Part shown: positions 35,326 to 63,999 of the stretch, in pieces | Layout of the letters: each line of letters begins with the position of its first letter | Position numbering within the stretch: position 1 is the stretch's first letter | Source: Brenneria rubrifaciens | Lineage (GTDB): Bacteria > Pseudomonadota > Gammaproteobacteria > Enterobacterales > Enterobacteriaceae | Length of the DNA: 64,000 nucleotides | NCBI RefSeq assembly: GCF_005484945.1 | Contig: NZ_CP034035.1 | Span: forward strand, 2,728,001-2,792,000 | Direction: 5' to 3' | Notes under the pieces: generated by a model | Told to the model about the DNA's origin: nothing | Seen by the model: only the letters and a program-made list of their open reading frames with translations | Database searches by the model: none | Program-made: the position numbers and the translations under genes

Positions 35326-35790
35326 CTATCGTTCGACCTTTATTATAGAAAGTATCCGGGCACCTTCGGGAAGGTAGGTATGGGCGGTTGAAACCAGCTC
35401 ACCTTCAACTCCAAGCTTAGCTATCAACAATACCACGAAGTTCGCGCCAACAGCTTCGTCCTGAACAATTTGCAGCATCGACAGGTCATCCGTCCTGCTT
35501 GGGTAAGGTGAAAATGACGGGTGAGAATGCCATTCTCCAATATAGTTGAATCGCTCATAGTCGTAGCCCGATTCCCGAAAAAATGAACGAAGGTTTCCAA
35601 TGGCATCCCCTATTCTTCGCACAAAGGACGATAATCCACCACGACGATGCACAGTCATCTCCCGGACGGCGAAGATGTTCGGTCCAACATGCTCGCCCAT
35701 CAAAATCCCGCCGACTTCGCGCCGGCCAGCCTTCCGGAGGGTCGCCGTCAGCAACCGATGCTGCTCACGAGGAAGGATCAGTGTTATCAC
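35326..35790 (-). CDS. cap3: CBASS 1: Cap3, JAB/JAMM isopeptidase
   Basis: 154-aa JAMM metallopeptidase. Catalytic Glu25 lies in REVGGILMGE, and the zinc ligands His88, His90 and Asp101 are in the HxHx7SxxD motif GEWHSHPSFSPYPSRTDDL. In type II CBASS, Cap3 removes the CD-NTase from Cap2-made conjugates and tunes signalling. The start is set at GTG 35790, 6 nt after AAGGAG; the in-frame ATG at 35796 abuts that site with no spacing. It overlaps the Cap2 gene by 26 nt and is the last gene of the operon. Confidence 0.9.
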   Translation of the reverse strand: MITLILPREQHRLLTATLRKAGRREVGGILMGEHVGPNIFAVREMTVHRRGGLSSFVRRIGDAIGNLRSFFRESGYDYERFNYIGEWHSHPSFSPYPSRTDDLSMLQIVQDEAVGANFVVLLIAKLGVEGELVSTAHTYLPEGARILSIIKVER

Positions 35791-37531
35791 TAACATCTCC
35801 TTCGTACATATTCAGCAACGCCTTTACAACTGTAACCTTGTCTTCATCGCTCACCGCGTTTTCGTCGCGCCCCCAGCCCTGACCCTGCACGTCGATCGGA
35901 CGTGTATCGAACGGTTCTTCAAAGATCCACTCTCTACACATGCCTAACAGATACACCGAATGCGGAAACTCACTTGGTGATCTGGACAATGCTGTATCGA
36001 TCGCCAAGCGGGTCAACGCGGTAGCAACGAAACCTACATCGCTGTCATATGCGACAAGCGGTTGTTCCTCATTCCCATCGTAGCTCGCCACGTTCTTGAA
36101 GGGGGATTCGGGAAGAGTCGACAAATGGGCGTAATAGGCATCACGAACAGCCAATGGGTTCGGATCGTGCCTCGGACGCGCCCGCGCGATCATTCCGCCG
36201 TAACCACCGGCGAATATCTCCCCCCAGCACAGCGGTATCCCATTTCGCTTCGCAAGCGCAGCTAACAACAGGAAAACCTCCGGATTAGCGGTGGCGTCAA
36301 TCAACAGGTCACAGTTTGACAGATCCTTTAGTGCGGCCTCGGTCTTCACTGCCGATTCCTGACCCGCGAGACGAATGGTATTCACATCCACCTGCACACC
36401 CGCCGCAACCAGCTCCAACGCGTGACTTACGGCCCACGCCTTATGCGCGCCCACATGGGCCCAAGACAACTCATGACGTACTATGTTGCCGGGCGCAAGG
36501 TAGTCGTCGTCCACCAATAGGAACCGCCGAACGCCGGATCGAGCCAATGAAACCGCGACTTTGCTGCCTACGGATCCGAGTCCGACAATGCCGACGCGGA
36601 TTTTACTCAATTTCTGTGACTCCTTCGACAGTCTAGAGCCAAAACGCGAGGGCCATACAACCCTATGTTCCAGCAACTCTGGCTGCTCCCCGGAGTTGAT
36701 CAAAAACACCCGCAGCGATCCCCACTCCTTACCCAGCAGTATGATCGTCCTAGCTATATACCTTCCTGCCTCCTGAACCAGAACATCGTCGGTGGCGAAC
36801 CCGGCTTTAATCAACACCTGGACCAATGCCTCAACAGATTCAACTGGTTGCATTTGATCGAAATCATCGCTTCGAAAGACCCATCCCTCACCGGGCAGTG
36901 AGAACAGACTAAAGGGCTTACTGATACCTTCCGGAATATCGGCCACGTTTTGCAACACATCCTGTGCGTCGGCGACTTTCGCTGCGAACATGACGGCAGC
37001 GCCACCATTGTACACGGTCACCGATGTCAATCGGGTTTGGGATGGAAGCGGAAGCATTAACCACGTGGAGAGTACTTCGATGGTGGCAACGAAACGCCGG
37101 AATATCCAGCGTAGGCCCTGTCCCTCAGTCAGGCTATGCGCAGACGGTACTGCATGAGGCAGTTCAGGATGCTGTTCTGTACTTAGCAACTCGTACGCGC
37201 TACGTACCATATCAGCACCTGTCACGTCGGGATGCCAATTATCTGCCCGCCATTGCAGGCAAAGCGAACCGCCCTCGCCATATTGGTGGTTAGACCATCG
37301 CTCAGACTTATCTCGCGGGCGGATGTACGGTGGAGAGTCCGGAAATACGTCCGGATACGTCATTATCCCCGCAAAGACACGACCATGAATGGTCATATCG
37401 ATATCGACCACGATCGCTCCATCTTCTGATATACGCCAGGCCAGACTCAGCCAACCAACCTTGATTTCGAGATGTTCGAGTTCCTCCTTCTCTCGCAGGA
37501 AGCGAGCGGGATCCTCCATGGCCCACTTCAT
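35765..37531 (-). CDS. cap2: CBASS 1: Cap2, fused E2-E1 ubiquitin-like transfer enzyme
   Basis: 588 aa. An N-terminal E2-like domain has the predicted catalytic Cys91 (GEGGSLCLQWRADNWHPD). A linker follows, then an E1/ThiF adenylation domain with nucleotide loop GIVGLGSVGSKV (residues 314-325), the VDDDYLAPGNIVRHEL segment and candidate catalytic Cys435 (IPLCWGEIFAGGYGGM). In type II CBASS it attaches the C-terminus of the CD-NTase to target molecules, priming nucleotide signalling. It begins one base inside the CD-NTase stop (TAATG junction) and overlaps cap3, so all four genes are tightly coupled. Confidence 0.9.
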   Translation of the reverse strand: MKWAMEDPARFLREKEELEHLEIKVGWLSLAWRISEDGAIVVDIDMTIHGRVFAGIMTYPDVFPDSPPYIRPRDKSERWSNHQYGEGGSLCLQWRADNWHPDVTGADMVRSAYELLSTEQHPELPHAVPSAHSLTEGQGLRWIFRRFVATIEVLSTWLMLPLPSQTRLTSVTVYNGGAAVMFAAKVADAQDVLQNVADIPEGISKPFSLFSLPGEGWVFRSDDFDQMQPVESVEALVQVLIKAGFATDDVLVQEAGRYIARTIILLGKEWGSLRVFLINSGEQPELLEHRVVWPSRFGSRLSKESQKLSKIRVGIVGLGSVGSKVAVSLARSGVRRFLLVDDDYLAPGNIVRHELSWAHVGAHKAWAVSHALELVAAGVQVDVNTIRLAGQESAVKTEAALKDLSNCDLLIDATANPEVFLLLAALAKRNGIPLCWGEIFAGGYGGMIARARPRHDPNPLAVRDAYYAHLSTLPESPFKNVASYDGNEEQPLVAYDSDVGFVATALTRLAIDTALSRSPSEFPHSVYLLGMCREWIFEEPFDTRPIDVQGQGWGRDENAVSDEDKVTVVKALLNMYEGDVSDNTDPSS

Positions 37532-38595
37532 TAGGCGAACCCCGAAGACTTGTTAGGTTGTACTGGATGACTGGGGAAGGTGAGGCTAGCGGTGACAGCT
37601 GCCGCAGGCCGCAGCAGCGATCTGGACGTGATATCACCTTTATCGGCCTGGATGCTGAAATAATCTGTATTAAATACTTCATCCCAAGCATCACTAGCTT
37701 TCTTACGTGTGCTGTCGTACTCGTCGAGAACCTTCAGTACCTCCAGCGCATCGCTCAGACATTCTCGGAAAAAGATCACGCACTCATCTCCGTCCTCCGC
37801 AAGGTTCTTGTCCGCATACACGGGATGATCAATACGTTGGCTGAAGTCCAACTGCGATTTGATCGCCTGCCAGGTATCGTGCAGAGCGTCATCGTCCCGG
37901 CCAGGACGTGCAACGAATTGGTCCACAACCAGTTTCGAAATGCAGATGCCACTGGCAGTTTTCTTTTTCCAGACAGCACGGCTGCGGGCCATCTTCTTGG
38001 TCAGTTTGGTAACCCGGCGCAACTGACTAGTATCGGATTGCCCCATCTTGAGTTCGGAGCCAACGGCGTCGTTGAACCAACGAGTCACCTTACGTGCATC
38101 CGATTTGACCCAGTCATCGTCGCTGGCCAGTTCGTACTCGACAATCTCATTGCCCCATATGTCTTTCGCCCGAATCGTACGATAGACGGGAATGTCAATG
38201 TGATACCCATCGGGATACGGCTGACGCACACAATTTGTTTTTACAACAGCATTGTAGGCTAATCGTTCGTCCTTCAATGCGTTACAAACCCTCCTGCGGG
38301 CATCATGCGCATCAAGGTAGTAGCCATCTGTGTCTTTCAGGTCTTCCTTATCAAAATACACGCCGTCATCAATGTCGTAGTCGCACGCATCATCCTGGAC
38401 CATGGTACGCATCGCATAGGAACCCTGCGAGCTGAACTCCTTCGGCAAGAGATGACCAGCCTTAGTCAACCCATTCTTGAGCCGCGTTCGACCGTTGTCG
38501 CGGCGGCTACGCATCTCCGCCTGCTCTCCGTTCGAGAGGTTCACCTCGTCCGCGTGATACCCTTTCATCTCTTTATTAAAGTCAATACTAGTCAT
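37531..38595 (-). CDS. CBASS 1: CD-NTase, DncV-like cyclic oligonucleotide synthase
   Basis: 354-aa cGAS/DncV-like nucleotidyltransferase. The core motif is [10 protein letters not shown] followed by [10 protein letters not shown], with metal-binding Asp74 and Asp76 and the distal acidic residue further on. The layout resembles DncV, which makes 3',3'-cGAMP. Pairing with a CapV phospholipase also fits that product, but the nucleotide is inferred. The chain ends with a flexible tail NKSSGFA, the kind of small-residue C-terminus that Cap2 conjugates. It overlaps the CapV stop by 8 nt and is coupled to Cap2 by TAATG. Confidence 0.9.
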
Positions 38596-39697
38596 ACTTA
38601 TCCTCAGATTGATGGCGACTGAGGTCGGAAGCGTTCGCCAGCGCAGTGCGAAACTCGCTCATCTGATCGATTGATTCAGCCGTAGCCCAGGCGAAATCGA
38701 CATCGGAGATGGCTTGCCGAGCAAGCGCATTTAGAACCTTAGGACGTGCGTCATCCATGTTTTCCAAATAATTGTGGAGTTCGCCAGACGGACATTGCGC
38801 TGGCAGCCGGTAGGCGAAACTGCCGTGTCCCCGCAGTTCCGCAATTTTTCGCGCGAGGTAGTCGTACGCAACTGCCTGTGCATTCATGCTCGCTGCAATG
38901 GCCTTGATACCGCCGCCCCATCCCCACACACCACGGTGCAGCTTGCGAGCACTTTTGAGCTCTTCGCCACCCTGAACGGGAAGCGTACCGAGCATATACA
39001 AATGAATCGGACGATCGTTATCCCCCCTTCGCTGAAGAATCTCGTGGGCTTCTATCATACCCACCGCCCCCGGATTATTTGCCCAAAGCCCACCGTCCAC
39101 GTAGTCAACCGTGGCGCCCCCGTCTCCGGGTTCAATCAGACGTGCGATTGACCTCAGAATGGGAGCTGCACTAGTCGCCATGCAGGCATCCACTAATAGC
39201 CGATCATTGTCGCGCCCGTTGAGACGGTCCATATGCGGGGTCTTGAACACAGTGGAGGAATGGCGGTTCAAGTCTACGGTGGTGATAGCTAGACCGATTC
39301 CACGGCGCACGTAGACTTGCCCCATTGTTTCGGCACCAAAGGCATCAACAAGCACAGCTCGCAAGGCTTGGTTACCCGAGGCAAGGCCGGAGAACATACC
39401 ACGGACGTATTTCCCCAGTTTGGGGACTGCACGCAGCCATTGCCGCGGAAAAATCTCCCGTCCATGAATTTGATACAGAGCCAGAACCTTACCGAGCGGG
39501 ATTCCCGCAGCCAAGGCACATGCAACTATCCCGCCTGTACTGGTTCCTACCAGCAGATCAAACGCTCTGCCCGGATCGATTTCCCCGGCACCGGAGACAC
39601 GCAGCCGCTGTATGAACGTATTAAGGTACGTCGCCTGATAAACGCCACGCATCCCACCTCCATCTAGGCACAAAACACGGAACGGCTCCACAGACAC
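38588..39697 (-). CDS. capV: CBASS 1: CapV patatin-like phospholipase effector
   Basis: 369-aa patatin-family phospholipase. It has the oxyanion motif [10 protein letters not shown] (residues 11-20), the nucleophile elbow GTSTG with Ser53, and the catalytic Asp201 in [10 protein letters not shown]. When the CD-NTase makes its cyclic dinucleotide on phage infection, CapV degrades the inner membrane and the cell dies before phage release. The start is a GTG at 39697 with GAGG about 9 nt upstream in an AT-rich leader. It is the first gene of the operon, an uncommon but known effector-first layout. Confidence 0.92.
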
Positions 39698-39913: not shown

Positions 39914-40800
39914 TCAAACGCCTCCACGTTGATAGAACAACTGCTGATAAGGCCTCAGCACCAAATCCCGATTCACAATAATCCGCACAGGCAGTCCCGG
40001 CCGTTCGGTCAGCATTGGCTGGATATCAAGATTATGCCGTGTGACTTCCTGCCCCACCCGATTCACCGTATCCTGTAAGCTATCACGCCCAGCGATGGTG
40101 TTGCAGTCGCCATCCTGGCGGTTCTCCGGTGCAGCCAGTTCGGCGCCAACGCCTAGCGTTGTGTGATTATCGCCGCACCGGCGATAACCAGATCCCAATG
40201 CCAGTCGGCGTCATCCTCCAGTCTGGTGTAATAGCCGGCTGGTTCGGTTTAGACCAAATGTCCAGTATTAACGACGAAGTATCAGGCAAAATGATACGGT
40301 TCAACACCACTTGAGCCCTACTTTGCCCATAGCTTATCTGACTGTTGTACATACTCAAGGTGCGCGAGCACTGTGGGATAATAGATAACGGCAGCTGGCT
40401 GTCCATGTCGTAGACCGGTTCGGTCACCGTGGCGATTACATCGCCTGGAAGATCAGATTTGATGCGCGTCACCAGCGATCACCGTTCCAACCATCACCTA
40501 TAGCGAGATAGGCTGATGAATATCCCTTGAGTTACTGGTTGTCGTAAGGCTTCCTTTCTGGAATGCCTCTTTCTGATCCTGCTGGTTCTGAGTAGTAGTT
40601 GGATCAGTGGCCTACGGTATTGTTGAGGCGGTCCTGCCGCCAGTGGGTCAGAGAGGATATTTGGCGAAGACGAAGCCGCTGGATGGCGTTGTTTACGCGT
40701 TAACCGTCGCCCGAGGATTGCTGCTGCGAAAAATACCGACGATACGGAGCATCTTCCGCTTCTTTCTGCCACGCCAGCTATTTAACATCAACGGCATACT
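39914..40800 (-). pseudogene. trbI: Decayed trbI (VirB10-type conjugation protein)
   Basis: Minus-strand segments in different frames match TrbI/VirB10 from the ICE-type Trb system. IKSDLPGDVIATVTEPVYDMD, SQISYGQSRAQVVLNRIILPDTSS (about 40470-40250) is followed after a frameshift by VGAELAAPENRQDGD, NIQPMLTERPGLPVRIIVNRDLVLRPYQ and a stop at 39914. Upstream remnants (NQQDQKEAFQKGSL) extend to about 40800. TrbI spans inner and outer membranes in the type IV secretion channel. Multiple frameshifts and stops make this non-functional; it is the only T4SS gene recognisable in the window. Sequence quotations here are joined from separate short matches. Confidence 0.8.
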
Positions 40801-41068: not shown

Positions 41069-41968
41069 ATGGCTTCGTCTGAGATTGCACGCATTAAAGA
41101 ACGGGGGAAATCGCAAAAGAGAATAAACGAAATTTACGCTGATTCGATGAACTCGTATCTAATACACTATTCGTGTGAATCATTTTACTCAGCCCCTGGT
41201 CAACCCCCTGTCGGCCACTCAACTCGGGTGACGTGTATTGCAATCAGAAATCTGAAGTCAGCGCAGACCAAGACTTGGTCCATTCAGAAATCAGCAGAAC
41301 TGCTTAACCAACTTGTGACTTTGACGTCACTTGCAGCAGGTAGGCAGACGACTTTTACCCCAGCACAGACGTCTGCAATCCTCGATCCGCTTGAGCGAGA
41401 TATGTTGGATGGATACTTTCAATTTTTAGCCACCCATTCTGACAGCACTTTTATTCACTGGAACATGCGCGATGATAATTACGGCTTTTCAGCCTTGGAA
41501 CATCGCTATCGCGTTCTTGGGGGTACTCCAACTATTTTACCTGATAATCGCAAATTAGACTTAGCACGAGAGTTAGTAACTCTATATGGACGCCAATATG
41601 CCCCTCATACATCCCCCAAAGGCCGCAAAGGGCGTCTGATGAGCATCATCGAATTGAACAAAATCGCTGATGTTGACGCTCTTCAGGGAGCGGAGGAAGC
41701 TGATGCGTTTGTCAACGGTGATTTTATCAAACTTCATCAATCTACTCTCCGCAAAGTCGACGTCCTTGCGAATGTATTTGACCGGACACATCAAAAAAGC
41801 CTAGTCACCAAGGCAAGCTTTATGGACAAGTACGGTATACATCCTGTAGCACTGCTGGAACTGGTAAAGAATAGTCCAATCACTACTGCGTTTACTGTAA
41901 TTGCAGCGATCGGCGTAGCAATGATTAATTACGAACGCATATTCACCTTTGTAAGGGGATTGTTTTAA
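41069..41968 (+). CDS. Protein of unknown function with C-terminal membrane helix
   Basis: 299 aa, family not recognised. The N-terminal part is soluble (MASSEIARIKERGKSQKRIN..., charged), with a middle region containing FIHWNMRDDNYGFSALEHRY that recalls acidic nuclease-like pockets only loosely. The end is a single hydrophobic helix (SPITTAFTVIAAIGVAMINYER) with a short tail, so it is probably tail-anchored in the membrane. The ATG has GGGATTAG upstream, a weak ribosome binding site. It is a single, AT-richer gene between the trbI relic and the radical SAM fragment. A soluble domain on a membrane anchor close to a CBASS operon is compatible with a defence role, but nothing in the sequence proves this. 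Confidence 0.6.
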   Translation: MASSEIARIKERGKSQKRINEIYADSMNSYLIHYSCESFYSAPGQPPVGHSTRVTCIAIRNLKSAQTKTWSIQKSAELLNQLVTLTSLAAGRQTTFTPAQTSAILDPLERDMLDGYFQFLATHSDSTFIHWNMRDDNYGFSALEHRYRVLGGTPTILPDNRKLDLARELVTLYGRQYAPHTSPKGRKGRLMSIIELNKIADVDALQGAEEADAFVNGDFIKLHQSTLRKVDVLANVFDRTHQKSLVTKASFMDKYGIHPVALLELVKNSPITTAFTVIAAIGVAMINYERIFTFVRGLF

Positions 41969-42602: not shown

Positions 42603-43295
42603 TCATCGATTTCCACAAACAACAAGATGTTCAAATAACGGGCAACCATTCATACATGTCGACTTATGTCTGCATCCGCCACATCGATCCGAGCTAAAAT
42701 AACTGCGAAACGACTGCATATTTGGAGATTTTGTCCAAATATCCAAAAGTGACGTATTATCGTTCAATTGATCTCCGTCAACCAAACCACTCTGAAATGA
42801 GCAGGGATACACTTTGAGATCTTCTGAAACATACATAGAGAATCTACCCGCGTCGCATGCATCCACCATTACCGTATTGGCATTCGTTCTTGCGAATACA
42901 CCACTGACGCAACAAGCGTCAAACCCAACTTTCAATTTTCTACGAGGAGAAGTTGCCAACTCGAAAAATTCATCCAGTCTCGAACTGTTTCGCAACATTT
43001 TCGTTTCAAAAACCTTTCGACCGGATGGTTTATAATTCAGAAAAATGATGGCATTAATGCCAGAAAGAAATTCGGGAGGTTCGCTGAGCCATCCTATCGC
43101 AATGTCAATGCTGTCAGCATCTAAGATAAAATGCACGTTGACTTTGATATTTTTTACAACCAATCTTGCTATAGTTTCAGCAGTCTCATCATATGGTGGA
43201 TATGCAGAAACAGCTACCGCGCCACAATACTGCCGCGTAGCCTCCAGTATTTCATTACTCAACCCACGACCATTAGTAGTGAAGTTCGGAACGAT
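42603..43295 (-). pseudogene. Radical SAM/SPASM protein, 5' part removed at IS junction
   Basis: The C-terminal 219+ residues of a radical SAM enzyme. The fragment enters from the IS end with FTTNGRGLSNEILEATRQYC (TNG is a radical SAM barrel motif) and ends in a SPASM auxiliary-cluster domain with many cysteines (FDACCVSG, DACDAGRF, YPCSFQSG, DRCGGCRHKSTCMNGCPLFE). The CxxxCxxC radical-SAM cluster and first strands are missing because the IS3 element begins at 43296. SPASM enzymes modify peptides or act as anaerobic maturases; the original substrate is unknown. An internal ATG at 43262 could give a short product without catalytic cluster. Confidence 0.75.
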
Positions 43296-43324
43296 TGACC
43301 TGCCCCCAGTGTTAGATACAACGA

Positions 43325-44158
43325 TCAGTTAGTAATATCGGTTTGTTTACCTTCTAATTTTCCATTTCTCCAGCCTGCTGCAAATTCAGACGGTGTCTGG
43401 TAGTTCAGCGAGGAATGAGGTCTGCACTCGTTATAGTCCTGCCGCCAGTCATTGATAATTTTCCGGGCATGAAGAATATCGCTGAACCAGTGCTCATTCA
43501 GGCACTCATCCCGAAAGCGACCGTTAAAGCTCTCAATAAATCCGTTCTGAGTTGGCTTACCTGGCTGGATTAATCGCAACTCAACACCATGCTCAAAGGC
43601 CCATTGATCGAGAGCGCGGCAGGTAAACTCCGGGCCCTGATCGGTTCTTATCGTCGCAGGGTAGCCACGAAACAGCGCAATGCTGTCCAGAATGCGTGTC
43701 ACTTGCACGCCTGTAATCCCGAATGCTGTGGTGATCGTCAGGCACTCCTTCGTGAAATCATCCACACAGGTAAGGCACTTAATCCGGCGACCGCTGCAGA
43801 GTGCATCCATGACAAAATCCATTGACCAGGTCAGGTTCGGTGCATCCGGGCGCAGGAGCGGAAGCCGCTCAGTCGCCAGCCCTTTACGACGCCGTCTGCG
43901 TTTTACGCTCAGGCCATTAAGGTGATAGATGCGGTAAACCCGCTTGTGATTAACGCAAAGACCTTCACGCCGCAGAAGCTGCCATATACGCCGGTAACCA
44001 AAGCGGCGGCGTTCAAATGCAATCTCAGTGATGCGCAGGGATAGCTGCGCGTCAGCAGCCGGACGCTGGGCCGAATAACGGCAGGTTGACAGGGACAGGC
44101 CTGCCAGCCTGCAGGCACGACGTTGCGACAGACCCGTTGTCTCACACATGACTTCCAC
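43325..44158 (-). CDS. IS3-family transposase OrfB (DDE integrase core)
   Basis: 277 aa counted from the internal ATG; functionally it is expressed as an OrfAB frameshift fusion. The rve-type catalytic triad is visible as [11 protein letters not shown] (Asp), [12 protein letters not shown] (Asp) and [21 protein letters not shown] (Glu), with D-D-35-E spacing. No internal stops, so the IS could still be active. Confidence 0.92.
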
Positions 44159-44181
44159 GGCTTCCCGCTTCTGGTCTGTCG

Positions 44182-44445: not shown

Positions 44446-44513
44446 GGTGACGTCCTCATGTGACTTATGAAGACATTACTAACATCGGTGTGTATTAATC
44501 AACGGGGAGCAGG

Positions 44514-52817: not shown

Positions 52818-54773
52818 CTATAAATGTAAGTCTTGCCGCCGGCCAATATCCCACGAAACACGATTACCACGCACCATCACCGAAACTTCATTTCCCAACC
52901 GCTTTTCAACCACCGGTTTCCATGGAACAAGACTGAATCCCTTGCCATCCTCCAGCATCGCATAACGTCCGCTAGCAAGTTTGATACTACGCCGGTAAAT
53001 GCCGCTAATTCTTTTACCATCAGTGACATGACGATGTTCCAAGCCAGTTTCAGCTGCGATATCCAGAGCAGCTTTCACAAGTTCTCGATCACGTAATGTC
53101 TCCAATAGGTTGCGAGCCAGATAGACTCGCTGTCCGCGCTTCTCGGCCAGCCCTTGTTCGATCAGAAAATTGGCGCGCTGCCGCAGAGCGTCTTTCACTT
53201 CGCCTCCAAATCCCATATCGCCCAGCCCTCTGCCGCCGCCAATTAACTGCTGGTCCAGCCAGGTTGCGCCGATTACGCGGATCTGACGCTCAATGGGCAA
53301 GTGCGACTTCAGTTCCACCACAGCACCACCGCCCAGACGCTGGACGTCATACTGGCGACCGCGTTCGGGCAGATCGCCCGGCACACGCCAGACGCCTTCG
53401 GCCATGCGCTCCACAATACCGGCCCGGCGCAGGGCTTCCAGTCGACGGACATAGGATGCCACTAACTCTTGCGGATCGCGGTCGGGCACATTTTGCTGCC
53501 TGGCAACGGCCAGATGATGGTCGGCACGGTACAAACCGCCAGCGGCCAGCGCGACAATGTTTTGATCAGAGGGGCGCAGATATGCCGCAGGCTTTACCTC
53601 CACCACCGAGCCGGTCTGATATTGCTCCAGCTCCGCCCGCGGCGGCAACGTCACATAATGCGCTCTACCGTCAAGTCCATCGACGACCAGATAACCCTTG
53701 TCGTACAGTTCGTCAGCCAACCCTTTTCCTGCCACACGGCCAACGAGGAAGTCCCCCTTATCGGGCTGGAATACCATCAGTTCACGCGGCTTGCCGTTCA
53801 TAGTGCGTTGCATAGTCCGGATGATATCGCCGCGCTCGCCCATTGCGCGTAGCGTCGTTTCTGCGTCGGCATGTATTTGCCAGATACCGGACTGGTGTTC
53901 GGATGCCAATCCCATGCGAGTTAAACGTTGCAGACGACCAATCAGCATCTGTCGTTGGCTTTGCAAACGCGGCGCGGCAAAACGTTCGATGTATATCCGC
54001 CCATCATCGGCCCTTTCACGCATCAAGATACGATCCAGAGTGGTCCAGCGCTCTTGCTCCACCTCACGTAGCCGCGTTAGTTGAATCTCCAGCTCAGTTC
54101 GCGGCCCCAACCATTCAGTTGCTAATGCCGACGCTCGCATTCGCATACCTTCAGCGATGTAATCGCGAGAGATGATCAAATCCTTACCGTTATCATCCTT
54201 GCCGCGCAACACGATATGAGTATGCGGATTGTCGGTGTTCCAGTGATCGACTGCCACCCACTCCAGGCCGGTCCCCAGATCGGCCTCCATACGCGCCATC
54301 AATTGTCGGGTATAGGAACGCAAATCATCGATTTGCTCCGCATCTTCTGGTGAGACGATAAAACGAAACTGGTGTCGATCCTCCCGTCCGCGTTTGTCAA
54401 ACTCTTTCAAATCGGCTTCGTCGGTAATCGGACCGTAGGCTTTCCCCGGCTCGCCGTGACGGCCGACCCCCTCACGCTCGATATAGCGCAGATGGGTTGA
54501 CGTTGAACGCGCACCGGCTTTTCTTAGGTTAACCAGCCGAGTTTTGATAGTGACGCGGCGATCGTTCGGTGTGCGAAAATCACTGGCAAAGCTCGCAGCA
54601 ACATGGCCGCGGCCAAGACGAGAACCAGGCCGTAGCCCTGCTTTGGCTGCTTTCGCACCGGCTTTATTAGTCTGCCGTATCACTCGGTTGATAAAAGGAT
54701 CGCCTCGCTGTCGGTTTTTTCCCATACGAGGACGAAAACGATCGTCGTCATTTTGATTCATGGCCTTCACCAT
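52818..54773 (-). CDS. rlxS: ICE relaxase, VirD2/RlxS type (DUF3363)
   Basis: 651 aa. The N-terminal relaxase domain has the predicted nicking tyrosine Tyr97 (STHLRYIEREGVG) and the metal-binding histidine motif around residues 177-186 (VDHWNTDNPHTHIVLRG). A long DUF3363 region follows, including PRELMVFQPDKGDFLVGRVA and GKGLADELYDKGYLVVDG. It nicks oriT and pilots the DNA strand in conjugation of trb-type ICEs. Full length with no frame damage. It is encoded next to traF; the oriT candidate lies in the 190-bp gap upstream. A relic of a related relaxase lies at 33974-34190. Confidence 0.9.
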   Translation of the reverse strand: MVKAMNQNDDDRFRPRMGKNRQRGDPFINRVIRQTNKAGAKAAKAGLRPGSRLGRGHVAASFASDFRTPNDRRVTIKTRLVNLRKAGARSTSTHLRYIEREGVGRHGEPGKAYGPITDEADLKEFDKRGREDRHQFRFIVSPEDAEQIDDLRSYTRQLMARMEADLGTGLEWVAVDHWNTDNPHTHIVLRGKDDNGKDLIISRDYIAEGMRMRASALATEWLGPRTELEIQLTRLREVEQERWTTLDRILMRERADDGRIYIERFAAPRLQSQRQMLIGRLQRLTRMGLASEHQSGIWQIHADAETTLRAMGERGDIIRTMQRTMNGKPRELMVFQPDKGDFLVGRVAGKGLADELYDKGYLVVDGLDGRAHYVTLPPRAELEQYQTGSVVEVKPAAYLRPSDQNIVALAAGGLYRADHHLAVARQQNVPDRDPQELVASYVRRLEALRRAGIVERMAEGVWRVPGDLPERGRQYDVQRLGGGAVVELKSHLPIERQIRVIGATWLDQQLIGGGRGLGDMGFGGEVKDALRQRANFLIEQGLAEKRGQRVYLARNLLETLRDRELVKAALDIAAETGLEHRHVTDGKRISGIYRRSIKLASGRYAMLEDGKGFSLVPWKPVVEKRLGNEVSVMVRGNRVSWDIGRRQDLHL

Positions 54774-54779
54774 CTAATA

Positions 54780-54960
54780 AAAGTCCGAGACAGCACATCT
54801 TCAGCTCAATGCTGACAAGACAGATACCGCTATCGCGGCACGCAGTTTCTTTCTGGCGCGTGCCGCGTTCCCCCATGTGCAGACCAGCCCTCTTGCGCGC
54901 CGAGGTGCCGCAAGCTTTTATCTTGCCTTGCTGTTCGTCTGACTTAGGACAACCGTACCG
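54780..54960. other. Candidate oriT upstream of the relaxase gene
   Basis: Intergenic region between relaxase and traF. It contains the perfect inverted repeat CGCGGCACGC (54834-54843) / GCGTGCCGCG (54858-54867) with a 14-nt loop, and a nic-like sequence TATCTTGCC (54919-54927), similar to the RP4-type consensus YATCCTGY. Relaxase-adjacent inverted repeats plus nic are the hallmark of MOB-P oriTs. The position is characteristic; function is inferred. Confidence 0.5.
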
Positions 54961-54964
54961 AACG

Positions 54965-55534
54965 TCAATCACCGATAAACATTTCAGGTACGAGTGGTCG
55001 TGCGATGCCCTTCAAACTTGAAGTGCGGACCGGTCCGAAATAGCGACTATCGAACGATGCGGAACTGGCGGTACTTAGCAGAAAAAGCTCACCGGATTTG
55101 AGCTGTCGGCATCCCGGCCAAGGGGATAGCGACTGGCCATGACTATCAGTAAGCAGTACGACAGCTACAGGTCTGCTATCGACACGTACTTCTCCATTCA
55201 CGATGCATACATGTTGCGGCGCAACCGCGCCCACGCGTTTAAGTAACGGAATATGCGCTGGCAGATAACCGCGTTGTGCAGCAAGAATCCAAGCGTCTGC
55301 TGGCAAATGGGTTAACACAATGCTGCCCGCGGACAATGGCTGCTGCATTGAACCAATCGGCTCTATGCGATACCAGCCAACCGCCACGCTATCTGTTGGG
55401 TTGTAAACCACACGCGGTATCGGCGTGTTGAAGGAAGCCCAAGCCAGTGCAGCAATACCGCAAGCGGAAAGACCAATAACCAGCAGGCGCAGACAAGCAT
55501 AAGATGTTGTACCGAATAGAAAGAAAACGTTCAT
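54965..55534 (-). CDS. traF: TraF-type S26-family signal peptidase of conjugation
   Basis: 189 aa from ATG 55534, which has AGGAG 8-9 nt upstream; the open frame continues further upstream without similarity. A single N-terminal membrane helix (LLVIGLSACGIAALAWASF) precedes an S26 peptidase domain with VGWYRIEP, GSIVLTHLP, LLKRVGAVAPQHVCIVNGEV and the C-terminal FDSRYFGPV box. In RP4 and related ICEs TraF processes and cyclises pilin (TrbC). It is adjacent to the relaxase gene, as usual for these elements. A catalytic Lys (LLKRV) is present; the Ser is probably that following the membrane helix. Confidence 0.85.
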   Translation of the reverse strand: MNVFFLFGTTSYACLRLLVIGLSACGIAALAWASFNTPIPRVVYNPTDSVAVGWYRIEPIGSMQQPLSAGSIVLTHLPADAWILAAQRGYLPAHIPLLKRVGAVAPQHVCIVNGEVRVDSRPVAVVLLTDSHGQSLSPWPGCRQLKSGELFLLSTASSASFDSRYFGPVRTSSLKGIARPLVPEMFIGD

Positions 55535-55739
55535 GCACAGTCTCCTGGTACTATCAGTTCCAACAACAAACACGGTTGTTCCACCAGCATCACGCGGAGT
55601 GTAACGGCTTGATAGGCGCGCCAAGCATAAGGGGAATATCGATAGTACACCGAGCCAAATTCGGCTTGGCGCCTGAATACCACAGCTAGCCATCTGATAA
55701 ACAAAAGCTGGTGGGCACCTATGGTTTTCACGTGCCGTT

Positions 55740-55937
55740 TGCTGGTTATCCACGGAAAATACGCTATTTCACAATAAGTTAGATCTTTAATGTTAGATCT
55801 GTTAGAGAACACCGGAACCCGCGCCATCACTGGGCTATATGCCGTTCGGCACGCTTGATAGCACGATAGTGTTACCTCCGATAGCACGAAGCCTGCCACG
55901 TCTGATAGCACGATGGATTTCACAGTTTTTTCCACAG
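55740..55937. other. Candidate replication origin (iterons plus DnaA boxes)
   Basis: Three exact direct repeats GATAGCACGA at 55857-55866, 55880-55889 and 55904-55913 (periods 23 and 24 bp) sit between repA and traF. A DnaA box TTTTCCACA is at 55928-55936 and a near-match TTATCCACG at 55746-55754. Between them is an AT-rich stretch with repeated TTAGATCT (about 55779-55800), a possible unwinding site. The combination next to an RPA-type repA is the layout of an iteron origin. Confidence 0.6.
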
Positions 55938-56783
55938 TTATCCCCGTGCCGTTGACAACACCGGTTTGAAGATAAGTAGCTCGGTTCCGCCTGATATACG
56001 TTCGATGGTCAGGACATAACCCGGTAGTGACTGCCGGGCGACCAGCGCGCGCAGATCGTAGGCAAAATCGGAAGGCCGAGCTGTACTGCCGGATTTGCGG
56101 TATAAGTGCCGAAAATCGAATCGCCATCCCCCGACTTGCCTGCCAGCGTGTTTGCGTACCAGACGATACAACCAACGTTCGATGCCCCCGCTCAGTCGGA
56201 AATACGCAGGATCGATTGTTAACACCAGAGTTGAATCGAGCACGCCAGCATAGAACCAATCCGGCAGGATCAACTCGATCCCTTGTGGCGCCCCCCGCGC
56301 GTCGGCTCGTTCCCGCCATTCGTTGATCCAGGAGAAACGATGCAAGCGCCGCCCTACTGGCGCACGAATAGATGTCGCTACCGAGGTCGATTGCAAACGA
56401 TCCAAGGAGGCTTTCAAACGTTGATAGTCGCGCAGCGATGTGCCGCGCCCAATAAATTTCAGGATTTCGTAAGGCGTCGCATGCATTAGACGCGAAGTCG
56501 AAATACCTGCGTCTCTGGCTTCGACGACCTGACTGGCCGCCCAAATCAAAATGTCGGCATCCCAAATGGTGGCAATGCCATGTTCGGCAGTGCCTTCTAC
56601 ACGAATGGTGATACCGCCTGCACAATAATCGATCGGCGCTGTACGCCGTGATTTTGCCAGCGAAAAAAACGGATAGGCCATTAAGTCCTGCGCATCGCGC
56701 GGTGCCATATCGCCCGGTAGTGCCCGAAAAAGATCGAGCGGTTCGTGTGCTTGCTGAGCGGAAGATTGCTGTGGTCTGAGCAT
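55938..56783 (-). CDS. repA: Replication initiator protein A (RPA family)
   Basis: 281 aa with RPA-family text: DLMAYPFFSLAKSRRTAPID, ITIRVEGTAEHGIATIWDAD, ILIWAASQVVEARDAGIS, PYEILKFIGRGTSLRDYQRL. Members initiate replication of plasmids and of the transient circular form of ICEs. The AlpA-like gene ends 26 bp upstream on the same strand. Iterons and a DnaA box lie directly after its stop. No ParA gene follows, unlike many related elements, so partition functions are missing here or outside the window. Confidence 0.85.
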   Translation of the reverse strand: MLRPQQSSAQQAHEPLDLFRALPGDMAPRDAQDLMAYPFFSLAKSRRTAPIDYCAGGITIRVEGTAEHGIATIWDADILIWAASQVVEARDAGISTSRLMHATPYEILKFIGRGTSLRDYQRLKASLDRLQSTSVATSIRAPVGRRLHRFSWINEWRERADARGAPQGIELILPDWFYAGVLDSTLVLTIDPAYFRLSGGIERWLYRLVRKHAGRQVGGWRFDFRHLYRKSGSTARPSDFAYDLRALVARQSLPGYVLTIERISGGTELLIFKPVLSTARG

Positions 56784-56809
56784 GGCGATTGTTACCGGGC
56801 CGCCATCGT

Positions 56810-57097
56810 TCAGCGTACACGGCTATCAGCCGAATGGTGCTCGGCATATTCAGGATCAGACGTTGTCTCGAAGCTGTGCTGATTTGCCCAAATGTCGAGA
56901 TCGGATACCGCATACATGACGCGTCGGCCAAATTTACGAAATCGAGGCCCACCACCAATAACGCGCTGTTTTTCGAGCGTTCGGGGTGATAGCCGCAAAT
57001 ATTCGGCGGCTTCGTCATTCGTCAGATAACGTGGTGGTTGCGATGTCGCCTGAGATTGTGGGATAGCGGCATCAGGTCGTATAGGTGCGGGTCGCAT
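56810..57097 (-). CDS. AlpA-like helix-turn-helix DNA-binding protein
   Basis: 95 aa from ATG 57097, which has GGAGG 8 nt upstream. MerR-like/HTH_17 excisionase-type domain: YLTNDEAAEYLRLSPRTLEK and RFRKFGRRVMYAVSDLDIWA. In ICEs such proteins act as recombination directionality factors or as activators of int/xis. It sits between the DUF2285 gene and repA, the usual position in this ICE class. There is no intact integrase in the window for it to partner. Confidence 0.85.
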   Translation of the reverse strand: MRPAPIRPDAAIPQSQATSQPPRYLTNDEAAEYLRLSPRTLEKQRVIGGGPRFRKFGRRVMYAVSDLDIWANQHSFETTSDPEYAEHHSADSRVR

Positions 57098-57180
57098 GGT
57101 ATAAGCCTCCATCAATTAATAGCATCGGCCACACCAGCGCGGCCAGACAAAGGCAGTTTCAAGCAAGCGATGTCAGTTGT

Positions 57181-57978
57181 TCAGGGTCGTTTTTCCACTA
57201 AGGCAAAACGGCCCTTCGCTGGGGAACCTTGCTGTGCCAGGCGACGATAGCCTTCTCGACTCATGCATTTGCCACGGCGCACCAATCGTCTTGTTCTGGA
57301 GCGCAGACCGCTATCGGCATACCAACCCTCACGCACTGCATCCATGCCAAACAACACCTCAGCCACCTCCCGTAAAGAGGCACCCGCCAGAGTGGCATCA
57401 AGCGCTTGAAGAGTATGTAATTCCAGCAAAGCGGTTGGCGATGGACGAGTACACGCTTTTGCCACAGGAGTCACCATTGCCGAAGCGATACACTTATCCA
57501 ATTCGGCTGCCATAGTCCGGTTACGGGAATAAGGTGCGACACCAGCACTGAACGCATATAGATAAGCCATACCATCAGCCAGATCCGACATTAGTGCTAA
57601 TCGCAGGCAACAGCTCGGCCAGTAGGACTGCAACATCAACCGCTTTCCATCGTGTAGCAATTGTTTGCGCCCAGGTATGTGCCAGAACTTGAAAGAAATA
57701 GCGTTCAGTGGAGGATCTGCATCCGGGTATAGCTGCACTGCGGCGTTATAGTCTGATAACCAGGCAGGATGAGCATCGCGCGCATCTAACGCTGGATTTT
57801 CCAGTTGATGTAATCCCCAGCGTCTTGCTGTATCCGGTTGCCGCTGATGGCACAACCAGGCTCGCCGGTAATCAGGGTTACGGCGTAGATATTCCCAAGC
57901 TAATGCGGAACCATCAAGATGGAGGATATAAAGATAGCCGGCGGTTGGGTTCCCATAGCCAGAAGTTGGTTTTTCCAT
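57181..57978 (-). CDS. DUF2285-domain ICE protein
   Basis: 265 aa from ATG 57978 (GGGAGGA upstream). N-terminal half WEYLRRNPDYRRAWLCHQRQ is the common transcriptional-regulator-like segment, and the C-terminal half LLELHTLQALDATLAGASLR, VAEVLFGMDAVREGWYADSGLRSRTRRLVRRGK (in part) is the DUF2285 helix-turn-helix region. In Mesorhizobium ICEs relatives are activators of excision and transfer. It is encoded before the AlpA-like gene on the same strand. Confidence 0.85.
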   Translation of the reverse strand: MEKPTSGYGNPTAGYLYILHLDGSALAWEYLRRNPDYRRAWLCHQRQPDTARRWGLHQLENPALDARDAHPAWLSDYNAAVQLYPDADPPLNAISFKFWHIPGRKQLLHDGKRLMLQSYWPSCCLRLALMSDLADGMAYLYAFSAGVAPYSRNRTMAAELDKCIASAMVTPVAKACTRPSPTALLELHTLQALDATLAGASLREVAEVLFGMDAVREGWYADSGLRSRTRRLVRRGKCMSREGYRRLAQQGSPAKGRFALVEKRP

Positions 57979-58333
57979 GACAGTCCTCCCGTCAAAAACA
58001 GGGATCGTCGCCACGGGCAATGAATAATCATCGATGAAATAGTCACTACGCCATATAGAAAGCATGCCGCACTGATTCGATAACCAGCGCCGTAAAATTG
58101 TCCGCTCGCGACAGATGCACAACTAACAAATAACCCTCAGTTCCAAGAGGTTGGCACCACCCTCCGCGGAAATCATGACTAAATAGATCAGATTTTAAAT
58201 CTTGGGTACCAGAATCCAGATTAAGATCGATATCATATTGAATTAGATCGAAATTATCGCAATCAACCTATCTGACCACTGATTATGTTATATAACTACC
58301 CCGCCGCAATGGACGGGATAGCTATATATGGCG

Positions 58334-58645
58334 TCAGGCCGTCGATTTGCTACGCGACCAAATCAGGTTGTATGCACCGTTTTCTTCCTCGATCAGGCGG
58401 GCATAAATTATTGACGGGAAGGAGGGATCGTCGAGGATTACTGAAAGGTAAGACCGTTTCGTCTGGCTGATTTTCTTCCAGGCCGCACCGATATCGTAGC
58501 CACCGGTACTCTGGATGCGGTAATCGGGAGCATGCTCGCTACTGCTGTCGATGGGAATAAATTTGGCCTTAACATTAAGCGTCAGAGTATGAATGGTGCC
58601 AGTGAAGCCATTGCTTTGTGCAGTGAAGGTGCCGATGTTAGCCAT
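58334..58645 (-). CDS. DUF736-family protein
   Basis: 103 aa: MANIGTFTAQSNGFTGTIHT, FIPIDSSSEHAPDYRIQ and a beta-rich C-terminus (RSYLSVILDDPSFPSIIYAR), matching DUF736, a very common accessory gene of proteobacterial ICEs and some plasmids. AAGGAGC is 6-7 nt upstream of the ATG. The function is unknown. It heads the ICE replication gene run on the minus strand. Confidence 0.88.
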   Translation of the reverse strand: MANIGTFTAQSNGFTGTIHTLTLNVKAKFIPIDSSSEHAPDYRIQSTGGYDIGAAWKKISQTKRSYLSVILDDPSFPSIIYARLIEEENGAYNLIWSRSKSTA

Positions 58646-59964: not shown

Positions 59965-60441
59965 CTATTTCACTGGAATCATTACTAATCCCGGCCCTGA
60001 ACCTGGAACCAGATTCACATACAAATTTTTGCGTCCAACAATCACAGCGAGCATTGGGCGCTTATCCTGTCGTTTCAATGATAGATGATTCCATTCAGAA
60101 CGGTCCAGACCAGACGGGTTAGGATAGTCTTCCGGGTGCGTGTGCCATTCACCTAAGTACCGAACAGTACCTTGACTGGCCATCCAATGAGCTAACGCAA
60201 TAGCATCATGACCAAAAGGCAATCGCTCAAAAAAATAACGGGATCGTTTATCCCATACAGTTGGAATCGTGGTTGCAGTAATAAGCATATTATTGCCATG
60301 TATAGTACCGAGCAAAATACCCCCAGCCTCGCTTTCAAAATCTTCGGACTGAATGTATTGCCGAAATGTCTCAAGTACATCATCTGAGAAATTTAAGAGT
60401 ACTCGTCGATCTTCGGTCGCCCATGAACTCATGAACTGCAT
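59965..60441 (-). CDS. cap3: CBASS 2: Cap3, JAB/JAMM isopeptidase
   Basis: 158-aa JAMM metallopeptidase with Glu38 (SEAGGILLGT), His100, His102 and Asp113 in GEWHTHPEDYPNPSGLDRSEW, again HxHx7SxxD. It cleaves CD-NTase conjugates made by Cap2. It overlaps the cap2 stop by 13 nt and ends the operon. Overall similarity to the CBASS 1 Cap3 is confined to the catalytic motifs; the flanking text differs. Confidence 0.9.
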   Translation of the reverse strand: MQFMSSWATEDRRVLLNFSDDVLETFRQYIQSEDFESEAGGILLGTIHGNNMLITATTIPTVWDKRSRYFFERLPFGHDAIALAHWMASQGTVRYLGEWHTHPEDYPNPSGLDRSEWNHLSLKRQDKRPMLAVIVGRKNLYVNLVPGSGPGLVMIPVK

Positions 60442-62069
60442 GCTTGGCAGTCCGTATCACTGGGAGGGTCACAGTCAGGTGTTGCTAGCTGGTAGTTCGC
60501 GTCGATCAGCCTTGTTCGTAGCGACGGAGAGTAAATGCCATTTACCCAGTCAAGTGCCATTTCCGCCCCCAAGCTTGCAGCATGTACAGAAACCGAGGCT
60601 GGAAATGGTACATACAGCCCTTCGCACCCATGCCCCGCCAACAAAACGGGGAGAGGACCTACGACAGTACGCAGTTTCCCATTTTTGTTACTATGCCACA
60701 GACACCGATAGCAAGCACCCGAACGATTTGTTTTTAGCAACGCCCTAACAGCAGTACCAGGTCCCTCTATCCAAACTGAAAGCATAGATGTACTCGATAG
60801 GTAATTCCCGCAAAGCCAATGTCCAAGGGACTCTTCACCAGAAGCATCGATTAACAGGTCCAACGGTCCCAGTTGGGCTTGCCTGGCATCAACAGGCAAC
60901 GCGCGAACATTACTGCCAGGAGAGAGTCTTTTTAACTCATTTGCCATCGCAATGGCTTTGTTAGAAAACAAATCGGGAAACCCAAGTCGGTGACGCCCAA
61001 TATTCTGCGGATAGAGGCAATCAAAATCCACTAAAGTGAGCTTCCCTCCTGAAGTTCCTGCCCCAGCCTTAACAAGCATTTCTGAAAGATACCCTCCGAT
61101 CGTGCCACAGCCAACAATCGCAATATTCTTTCCAGCAAACGTTTGTAATTTCGGTATATTTCTCTCAGAAAGGTATCTATCATCAATCCTGACAACAGAC
61201 ACTGGCATTACTTCCAATCCATAAGTAAGGTCTCTTCGATCACCTAATTTAATTCTCTTCCCGTGGCTATGGCTTTCTTGGCGTTTATAGAAAACTACAA
61301 ATCCGTATGTCATCAATGGAGATTCAACCAGAATCAAGACGCCATTAGCCTTTTTGATATTACCTTCTTGAACGCGCTGGTGAATTTTTCTACGACACCT
61401 CGAATCAAGCACTCCCTGCCATGTCAGAATATCCTGAACAGTTCGAGGCGGCCAATCGGTAGTTAATGGACGAGGCCGTACATTAGTGCGCACGCGGTAG
61501 GTTAATACTGTTTTATCAGTGACTTGATGATGAAGAAACTTAAGCTTATTTGTCGTTCGCTCTTTATTGTCGGTAATGAACCAGAAAGAGCTATCACCGC
61601 ATTTTGTAACGATGCATTGTTGCTGGCCAAGATCTTTACCTTGTAGATCAACCAAGCAGAAAGGTCCATGCCAGTAGGCATAGAATTCCTCTTCAAGATC
61701 CTCGACCATCTCTCCTTTCATGATTTGACCGAACACATATGCCGCACGATCTAGGCAGGCAAGCGACTGCCCGACGGGATCGAAGATGTCCAAAACTACC
61801 GTCCCCTTAGCGATATAACAAAGCCATCCATCTGCACCGAGGTGGGGAACCACCAGAGGTAGTTTCGGCGGTAGTTCCAAGATCCGGACACGAGGTAAAT
61901 CGAAAAAACTTGGGTCAAGTTGGATTTCGCATAGATAGCCGTGCGTCACCTGAGGTGGCATTAATGGCCCACACAATCTGAACCAGCCGTCATGCGATTT
62001 TCCCATGAAATCAAAACCTTTTTCTTTAAAGGCCTCGATAACCTCAGTGACTATGGTAACGTCGCTCAT
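60429..62069 (-). CDS. cap2: CBASS 2: Cap2, fused E2-E1 transfer enzyme
   Basis: 546 aa. The N-terminal E2-like domain has a candidate catalytic Cys84 ([14 protein letters not shown]). The C-terminal ThiF/E1 domain has the nucleotide loop [15 protein letters not shown] (317-330), the segment [20 protein letters not shown] and a cysteine pair Cys453/Cys456 ([12 protein letters not shown]) near the expected E1 catalytic site. Its start overlaps the CD-NTase stop by 4 nt (ATGA). It is about 40 residues shorter than the CBASS 1 Cap2 and diverged across its length. Confidence 0.88.
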
Positions 62070-63208
62070 CCTGCTTTCGTTCTCCCCACAAGCTCGCTAG
62101 GCCCAGCCGCTGCAGGTGCGGCTGCAATAGAGGCAGCCACCGAAACTATTTTCACACGGTCTGGTTCATTCGGAAAGCGCGGCCCAAACTCACTACACAT
62201 CCAAATGCATGCTTGGGAGCAACTGCCCGCATCAATGGCGCCACGAAGAACCTTTTCGAAACCTTCGAAGGCTTTGACAGCTTCCTTAACACCATCTTTT
62301 CCAAGGCGATTTGTTAAAGACTCAGTTTCGTCGATAGGATTATTAACACCAGCAGCAAGACTTGCCGGCAATGCAGCCACTACATCCAATAAGGCAAGAT
62401 CATCACGCCGGTCACGCTTTTCGAAAAGTGGAGCAGCTGCTGCCATCAGCAAAATGGAAGAAGGGCCGCCACTAGACCATTTCCAATCGCGAAACGCCTT
62501 GAGATAGCGGACCACGCGGCGAAACTGTTCCCCTTTAGCGTCGACCTCCCCAAGGAACCATTCTTTGACCGGCCTTGGATCTGATTTCATCCAATCGCAC
62601 TCACGGTGAGCAAGGAGAACCTTGTCGCTTGGCAATGCAGTCCATACATCTCGCTCTGCTTTTCTTACCGCTTCGTCTAGCGTTGCATAGCCATAGCTCT
62701 CCATTGAAGCTTTTGCAAGAGTAACGAACTCCTTATCTGGGATAGCATACAGTGGGATATCAATGTGGGCATACGACGCAATAACAATACGTATGCATGT
62801 AGCTTTGTCCGTGACGAGCTTCCAGTTGTTATCCTCAACTAAAGGTCTTAATGCTTCTTCCGCAGCAGCGAAGAACACAGCGGCAGCTACGCTAGGACGT
62901 TTGGTCTGCGATACAAAGCTCAATGGTAAGTAACAACCATCATCTACGTCAGCTTGCTGAGGTCGTTTTGCTGGTGAGTTAAGCGTTTTATATGCCCAAG
63001 AACCTTGAGTGAAAAAACGCGGCTGTGGAACATCTTCGGTATATCCTTCCGCCCTAAGAACTCTTGGAATACCTGTTTTCAGGCAATTTCTGACTTCAGT
63101 CCTAACATCAGCAATTGAGGCGCGCTGTTCGGGACTCAAATCAAGCGCATCATGCATGCAGGATTCGTTGTTGACAGTAGTGAAGAAAAGTGGACTTAAG
63201 TTCAGCAT
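62066..63208 (-). CDS. CBASS 2: CD-NTase
   Basis: 380-aa cGAS/DncV-like nucleotidyltransferase. The core motif [12 protein letters not shown] is followed by [13 protein letters not shown], with metal-binding Asp87 and Asp89. The spacing from GSW to DxD is longer than in CBASS 1, and an N-terminal helix precedes it. The product is unknown; with a patatin effector a cyclic dinucleotide such as cGAMP or a related molecule is likely. It ends GRTKAG, another small-residue tail for Cap2 attachment. It overlaps the CapV stop by 7 nt. Confidence 0.88.
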
Positions 63209-63999
63209 TTATCCTCCAAAGTGTTCTTGTTTGGGCCGTGAAAGAACATAGGGGCAACGGCCTGATGCGCACGAAACGGTTGAAAAAGAGGGTCGCCAAG
63301 CGCGCGTTGCGCAGCATGAACACCACGATCTTTGAGCGTATTGGTTGCACCAATAGACACTCGATCCAAGGCCTTGACATCGCGACTTTGGTCAGGAGTG
63401 GCCTTGTCGTCAATCTGATAGTAATTTTCTCCCAATGATTGCCGCAGCATATAGTCAACAGATGATTCTTGTGCGGAGATCACCAGATCGAATAGCCCTC
63501 CTCGCCATCGACCAAAACCTCGATCGAGATTTGCGCCGCCACGAACGGTTGCCCCGATAGTCATTGTGCCAATAGCTAAGACCCGAACCAGCGATCTTTG
63601 ATTGGGTGCCAGAAACGTTTTAACCTCATGGAAGCCAAATAAGCCAGGAGCATTACCAACCAAACCGCCATCGGCAAAAACGCCTCGATCATTGCGCGAT
63701 AGAGGGAAATACACTGGGGCAGCAGCAGTAGCCAGCGCGACATCAACAATATTCATGCGATGATCTAGTTCAAAAGTTGGGTGATGTGGCGTCTTAAAAA
63801 ACTGACCGCGACCTGTCGTGTAGTTAACCGCCGGTATAAGGACTCGATGCTTCAAATCGCCGATAGTTGTGTCCTGGAATCGCTCGGTCAGAACTTCCCT
63901 CAGCCCCTTTGAGTTATGCTTGGCAGACAACCAGAATCCCAGCAACCGTCTGGGAAGACTGCGACATCCAAAAATGCGACTACCTTCGTTTTCGAACAA
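63202..63999 (-). CDS. capV: CBASS 2: CapV patatin-like phospholipase (N-terminus beyond window)
   Basis: The C-terminal 265 residues of a patatin-family effector. The catalytic-dyad aspartate motif appears as [13 protein letters not shown], and the segments [18 protein letters not shown] and LSVDYML-like helix text fit CapV. The GGGxRG and GxSxG nucleophile boxes are off the window edge. It would be the first gene, as in CBASS 1, and is coupled to the CD-NTase by a 7-nt overlap. It is expected to hydrolyse membrane phospholipids when activated. Confidence 0.88.

Follow-up and report, generated by a model that had tools for sequence, protein, structure and literature searches.

Two dissimilar type II CBASS operons with CapV effectors in one insertion at guaA of Brenneria rubrifaciens

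Results

Two complete type II operons of the cyclic-oligonucleotide-based anti-phage signalling system (CBASS) lie on the minus strand of the stretch of Brenneria rubrifaciens DNA analysed here, a window of 64,000 nucleotides (contig NZ_CP034035.1, positions 2,728,001 to 2,792,000 of the forward strand) taken from a genome of 4.03 Mb assembled as a single contig. Each operon runs in the order CapV, CD-NTase (cGAS/DncV-like nucleotidyltransferase), Cap2 and Cap3, with every gene overlapping its successor. Operon 1 occupies 39697-35326 and operon 2 occupies 64203-59965, leaving a gap of 20.3 kb; positions above 64000 were extrapolated from a stretch that continues beyond the window (L001). We consider it probable that the two operons were acquired independently and form the cargo of a single conjugative element, now decayed, that is inserted at guaA, where they would work as set out in the Discussion. 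As read from the sequence, this case is made up of the gene content, the intact motifs, the divergence of the operons, the insertion at guaA, a CapH-CapP pair beside operon 2 only and two types of Cap2. Papers are cited below by their PubMed Central (PMC) numbers, and statements resting on them refer to excerpts of these papers.

The first-pass annotation of this DNA had described two type II CapV operons with the same overlapping order, and this was confirmed by Pfam, PADLOC and NCBIfam, whose classifications of the eight proteins agree. Operon 1 starts with a CapV lipase of 369 aa (38588..39697; Pfam Patatin 1.5e-22, PADLOC 5.3e-91) that has the GTSTG and DGG motifs, followed by a CD-NTase of 354 aa (37531..38595; PF21654 4.9e-19, PADLOC 1.4e-137) with D74, D76 and D134 and the C-terminus GFA, a Cap2 of 588 aa (35765..37531; PADLOC PDLC00855 4.2e-193; E2 Cys91 by alignment) belonging to the type called T1 below, and a Cap3 of 156 aa, a JAB isopeptidase (35326..35796; PF14464 6.7e-11, PADLOC JAB 8.7e-57) in which the HxH-S-D motif is kept. 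The CapV of operon 2 has 333 aa (63202..64000, continuing to an ATG at extrapolated position 64203; the part in the window scores 286 bits with NF041079). It is followed by a CD-NTase of the DncV type with 380 aa (62066..63208; NF041078 399 bits; D87, D89 and D150; C-terminus KAG), a canonical Cap2 of 546 aa (60429..62069; PADLOC PDLC00853 2.6e-218; E2 Cys84 by alignment) and a Cap3 of 158 aa (59965..60441; PF14464 2.6e-11, PADLOC 2.5e-57), again with the HxH-S-D motif. Both operons thus have as effector gene a CapV patatin lipase with its Ser-Asp motifs. When the part of the second CapV beyond the window was checked for loss of function, its start was found intact, and a broken protein was rejected.

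The catalytic aspartates are intact in both CD-NTases, and PF21654 exceeds its cut-off for both; the SMODS model PF18144 found no match in this genome, PF21654 being the fitting model. Both cyclases end in Ala or Gly, as required by the conjugation rule that the C-terminal residue is one of these two (PMC11153139). On these grounds each operon is classed as a type II CBASS. Each is of a known kind, and it is their combination that is new.

The two operons share little. Counterpart proteins are 25-31% identical and there is no DNA similarity, which bears out what the first-pass annotation had said of the proteins. In trees of the CD-NTases (30 rows) and CapVs (19 rows), operons 1 and 2 fall into well separated groups. 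The cyclase of operon 1 is 82% identical to one of Pseudoxanthomonas daejeonensis and to one in a metagenome-assembled genome of Lysobacterales, and 72-73% identical to those of the best plasmid records; Klebsiella accounts for 93 of the 181 matching plasmid records, and the same four genes are present on Klebsiella plasmids. The DNA of operon 1 aligned in one of 5426 complete Escherichia coli genomes, with 86% coverage and 75% identity, where an insertion sequence (IS) element lies between Cap3 and Cap2. Operon 2 had no near DNA match among the same 5426 genomes, and its cyclase is 80% identical to that of another genome of the same order (G058). A recent duplication of one operon from the other would account for the common gene order and effector class, and we give it practically no chance, because the counterparts are so dissimilar in protein and DNA and each operon is nearer to operons of other bacteria than to its neighbour. 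Separate acquisition of the two operons is supported by these sequence comparisons.

The boundaries of the insertion were found by comparing flanks within the genus. The sequence matching 34659-34937 of the window directly abuts the 3' end of guaA in one same-genus genome (G006), and here the same flank lies 34 kb from guaA; judged by eye, the two sequences part at the last guaA codons. The left boundary carries a copy of the guaA 3' end, which reads IEWE-stop on the minus strand (34923..34937; codons by eye). An insertion of about 34 kb at the guaA 3' end therefore encloses both operons. In another genome of the genus (G003), guaA comes 2.8 kb after a stretch matching 7982-27798 of the window, so that the whole of 27.8-69.1 kb is variable. 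The gene order next to the window is guaA-guaB-xseA-der, an arrangement suggestive of Enterobacterales. An integrase lies on the guaA side (extrapolated 67527-68804; PF00589 2.1e-21), and integrase and boundary repeats are thus both present at the guaA 3' end, the repeats being imperfect. No tRNA was found in the window or in L001, and a tRNA was rejected as the insertion site.

Between the operons, the minus strand at 52818..58645 encodes a backbone recognised by Pfam: a DUF3363 relaxase, an S26 peptidase, HTH_17, an RPA initiator, a RovC-type regulator and DUF736. Beside operon 1 there is a broken TrbI conjugation gene (39914..40472, minus strand), two pieces of which match PF03743 (2e-9 and 6.8e-16). 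A complete mating-pair apparatus was not found; the scanned proteins, which did not include some short open reading frames (ORFs), held only the broken TrbI, the relaxase and the S26 peptidase. The flank comparison, the integrase and the broken TrbI agree with the first-pass annotation in placing the operons in one island, a single guaA-bounded insertion, and we infer a single conjugative element, now decayed, in which operon 2 lies close to the integrase and operon 1 at the opposite end. The island may, however, be composite, as the 43-52 kb region holds an IS3-type transposase and metabolic genes. The copies of the guaA end at the two boundaries differ at several bases, which also counts against the combined explanation.

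Beyond their common place, the operons appear to differ in their control. A divergent gene pair faces operon 2, capH (HTH; PADLOC 4.3e-19) and capP (M78 peptidase; PADLOC 1.1e-71, PF06114 2e-14), and is absent at operon 1, where the upstream sequence shows nothing but the TrbI remnant and one ORF with no Pfam or PADLOC match. ORFs like CapH, CapP or CapW (E 1e-4) were likewise not found in the examined flanks of any of five relatives of operon 1 (L010, L011, L012, L013 and L095). The stretch between capH and operon 2 contains a perfect 10-bp inverted repeat whose arms are 4 bp apart. We take this repeat as a putative CapH operator; two of 126 loci carry it, both from this genome, and it has no further copy within the window with up to 3 mismatches allowed. 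CapP is reportedly activated by single-stranded DNA and then cleaves the repressor CapH (PMC13373217). By analogy, operon 2 would be held by CapH and released through CapP, and operon 1 would stand outside such control. A DUF2188 ORF opens operon 2 (L001 6211-6456, minus strand); by eye, such an ORF also precedes capV in two relatives (L075 and L076) and not in two others (L077 and L014). In a Paraburkholderia relative of operon 2, a WYL regulator takes the same divergent position.

The Cap2 proteins are of two kinds. We use T1 as our own label for Cap2 proteins that group with that of operon 1 and T2 for that of operon 2 and the others. The alignment held 37 proteins, 16 T1 and 21 T2. Among 37 loci examined, 11 gave no Cap2-like ORF at E 1e-4; L118, from the same genome as L010, was excluded. 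From plasmids, 8 of 129 records were added, 2 more from Klebsiella having been included already. The split between T1 and T2 has a support of 100/100. The E2 cysteine is kept in all 16 T1 and all 21 T2 proteins, and the zinc site of two CxxC pairs has all four of its cysteines in every T2 protein and none of them in any T1 protein (one T1 protein, L011, had a cysteine in a zinc-site column in an earlier alignment and has none in the final one). The canonical E1 catalytic cysteine is likewise missing from all T1 proteins, and is found in 19 of 21 T2 proteins (20 of 21 in the earlier alignment); L097 is off by one column, and L083 has no cysteine there in either alignment. The Cap2 of operon 2 is canonical, with E1 Cys482 and CxxC pairs at 453/456 and 541/544, and that of operon 1 lacks the canonical E1 cysteine and both pairs and keeps E2 Cys91. 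The adenylation core is invariant in T1 (G317xGSxGSK, D341, D343, N349, R352 and K364). Members of T1 stand beside CapV and SAVED-type genes in Gamma- and Alphaproteobacteria and in one cyanobacterium. PDLC00855 was the best PADLOC model for the four T1 proteins scanned (that of operon 1, L119, L124 and L126), so the family is already catalogued; among 369 genomes of the class, 3 gave a hit to this model (E 1e-30). In L083 (G245; 6937-11328), the order is the unusual CD-NTase, Cap3, Cap2, CapV, and its Cap2, lacking the E1 cysteine, retains the zinc-site cysteines.

What these losses mean for the chemistry is less certain. T1 might be a wide subfamily that works without the E1 thioester step, the E1 half adenylating the cyclase C-terminus, which would then pass straight to the E2 cysteine. 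Beside the canonical Cap2, this would place two chemistries in one cell, possibly with opposite effects on the cyclases (by analogy, restraint as proposed for Bacillus cereus against priming as in E. coli), with one of the two CBASS gated by damage. We regard this whole reading as speculative and, on balance, quite improbable. It is opposed by a cysteine in the adenylation half, Cys407, which is kept in 14 of 16 T1 proteins (G in L106, S in L126), and by the report that the E1 mutation C403R in the Cap2 of B. cereus abolishes immunity (PMC11153139). To say that the Cap2 of operon 1 has no E1 cysteine at all would thus be too strong, since Cys407 may be functional. For the Cap2 of E. coli, the E1 active site was assigned to C493/C496 and a catalytic role was predicted for C513, and mutants of E1 or E2 lost defence against T4, T6 and lambda (PMC10097602). 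The Cap2 of B. cereus WPySW2 conjugates the cyclase to PspA (PMC11153139). In this protein the needed cysteine follows the E2 cysteine by 312 residues, which fits Cys407 of T1 (300-319 in 14 sequences) and not the catalytic position of T2 (384-448 in 21), so that, judged by this spacing and the reported residues rather than by its full sequence, the B. cereus Cap2 may itself be T1. Some cysteine also occurs at a spacing of 306-310 in 3 of the 21 T2 proteins. A search of open-licence PMC texts found no description of missing E1 and zinc cysteines, which is a weak negative, as it covers a minority of the papers that came up, the Cap2 paper of Ledvina et al. not among them.

The signal molecules were judged by the nearest solved relatives and by two NCBIfam models, NF041078 for cGAMP (cyclic GMP-AMP) synthases (cut-off 150 bits) and NF041079 for cGAMP-activated lipases (cut-off 200 bits). 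Operon 2 exceeds both, with 399 bits for the cyclase and 286 bits for the part of CapV in the window. The cyclase of operon 2 is nearest to DncV (structures 1e-39) and that of operon 1 to BfCdnB (7LJO), and both of these enzymes are described as producing mainly 3'3'-cGAMP (PMC10442399). Both CapVs match the same group of solved CapVs best, far above the one activated by cUMP-AMP. Operon 1 falls below both cut-offs (112.2 of 150 bits and 190 of 200 bits), which counts against a common signal and makes that of operon 1 less certain. It is possible that the operons are insulated from each other, operon 1 using another cyclic nucleotide and its CapV ignoring cGAMP, so that the cell would have two alarms that no single anti-cGAMP phage protein could silence. 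The scores of operon 1 and the well separated groups of the cyclases and CapVs speak for such insulation. We think it rather unlikely, however, in view of the kinship of the operon 1 cyclase with BfCdnB and of the match of the first CapV to cGAMP-activated structures (4e-31, against 4e-8 for the cUMP-AMP-activated one). By sequence, a common signal is likelier than different ones, probably 3'3'-cGAMP in both, which is well supported for operon 2 and less so for operon 1. If cGAMP is common to both, one cyclase may activate both lipases, and both systems would be exposed to the same phage counter-measures, such as Acb1 and Acb2, whose target is 3'3'-cGAMP (PMC10419184).

To see how unusual the pairing is, we counted DncV-like cyclase genes in genomes of the same order. 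They occur in 29 of 394 genomes, this one included, and only this one has two; if 30 genes were scattered at random, 1.09 genomes would be expected to have two. The window was chosen for having two operons, and this single case thus carries no weight for co-occurrence. An excess of co-occurrence is unsupported, and the pair is uncommon but within chance. Two random places would be as near to each other as these operons with P 0.012, a closeness due to the common insertion site at guaA. Since the count matches chance, carrying two operons need not mean selection for stacking. They may have arrived by chance at a busy insertion site, one of them perhaps unexpressed or redundant and without any benefit from stacking. 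Besides the count, this possibility is favoured by other CBASS at guaA in genomes of other families, one (G413; L078, 2458-10134) with guaA, an integrase of the same kind, CapV, CD-NTase, Cap2 and Cap3, and another (G691; L117, 2389-8861) with guaA, CD-NTase, Cap2, Cap3 and a SAVED-2TM effector. It is also favoured by the defence island at guaA of Stenotrophomonas maltophilia (PMC11680222) and by remnants of another integrase beyond the left boundary. Both operons, however, are fully open with intact motifs although trbI is broken, which suggests, without proving, that both were kept, and we hold the chance explanation to be unlikely, if still worth weighing. A genomic-island hotspot of Pseudomonas is dominated by several CBASS subtypes (PMC12629846). 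On a plasmid of Phaeobacter sp. G2 (L122, 2742-9677), a second nucleotidyltransferase-SAVED pair comes directly after a type II CBASS whose Cap2 is T1.

Other features of the region were also recorded. The integrase remnants lie just beyond the left boundary (34600-34780) and, by eye, resemble both ends of another tyrosine integrase whose middle is missing, which suggests a tandem element at guaA. An ORF of 299 aa without Pfam or PADLOC match (41069-41968, plus strand) adjoins the TrbI remnant. The mixed cargo at 42603-51833 comprises a SPASM fragment, the IS3-type transposase, MFS, SDR, an AUDH beta-propeller protein and a UDP-GlcNAc 2-epimerase. By the relaxase, at 52428-52724, there is an XRE-type HTH gene, whose nearest matches are restriction-modification control proteins (1.3e-14) and which bears a weak likeness to capH (5.6e-10). 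A peptide-transporter block at 17640-26130 is probably accessory too, because nothing matches it in G003 (L098), where the stretch is otherwise colinear.

Discussion

The combined explanation that we find probable is that two separately acquired type II CBASS operons are held in one decayed element at guaA and work in the following way. Upon infection, each CD-NTase would make a cyclic nucleotide, probably 3'3'-cGAMP, which would switch on its own CapV and lead to degradation of the membrane and death of the infected cell. Cap2 would join the C-terminus of the cyclase to a target, and Cap3 would take the cyclase off again. Operon 2 would be kept down by CapH until single-stranded DNA activates CapP, and one cyclase may activate both lipases. 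Our confidence in this explanation, and in the reading of T1, was set with the missed cut-offs of operon 1 and the B. cereus result in view. The first-pass interpretation holds as regards two independent operons that are not duplicates and lie in one insertion. Its suggestion that their signal molecules are probably different is not supported as stated, the nearest solved relatives of both cyclase-CapV pairs being on the cGAMP side. Wider phage coverage from two operons is plausible, and so is cross-talk between them.

Simply listed in a catalogue, a genome with two CBASS is ordinary. Here, however, two CBASS that kill with the same enzyme occur naturally in a common cytoplasm, which allows insulation and cross-activation to be tested directly, and an apparently damage-gated CBASS is paired with an ungated one. 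The Cap2 subfamily of operon 1 raises the question of whether bacterial ubiquitin-like conjugation always depends on the E1 thioester step. Most worth following are this subfamily and the CapH-CapP control seen on one side only.

Each part of the pair can be set beside known systems. Operon 2 has the same four genes as the type II CBASS with DncV (clade A01) and CapV of Vibrio cholerae and E. coli, a cyclase that fits the DncV structures and the cGAMP synthase model, and the canonical Cap2 cysteines. What sets it apart from that system is the DUF2188 ORF at its start and the CapH-CapP pair opposite. With the CapH-CapP regulators of PMC13373217 it shares the divergent genes for an HTH protein and an M78 peptidase, which operon 1 lacks. 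Operon 1 differs from the DncV-CapV system in its cyclase group and its type of Cap2, and resembles the CBASS type of Klebsiella plasmids, its best models being PDLC00783 for the cyclase, PDLC00855 for Cap2 and PDLC00758 for CapV. Unlike the plasmid systems, it is chromosomal, located at guaA and beside a second CapV operon. The B. cereus WPySW2 system (PMC11153139), with E2 Cys91 and a needed cysteine at +312, fits the type of operon 1, in which Cys407 lies at +316, but its effector is Nuc-SAVED where operon 1 has CapV. The island of S. maltophilia (PMC11680222) likewise carries defence cargo by guaA in a different host, and two CapV-type CBASS together, as found here, are a feature unreported in the excerpts of that paper.

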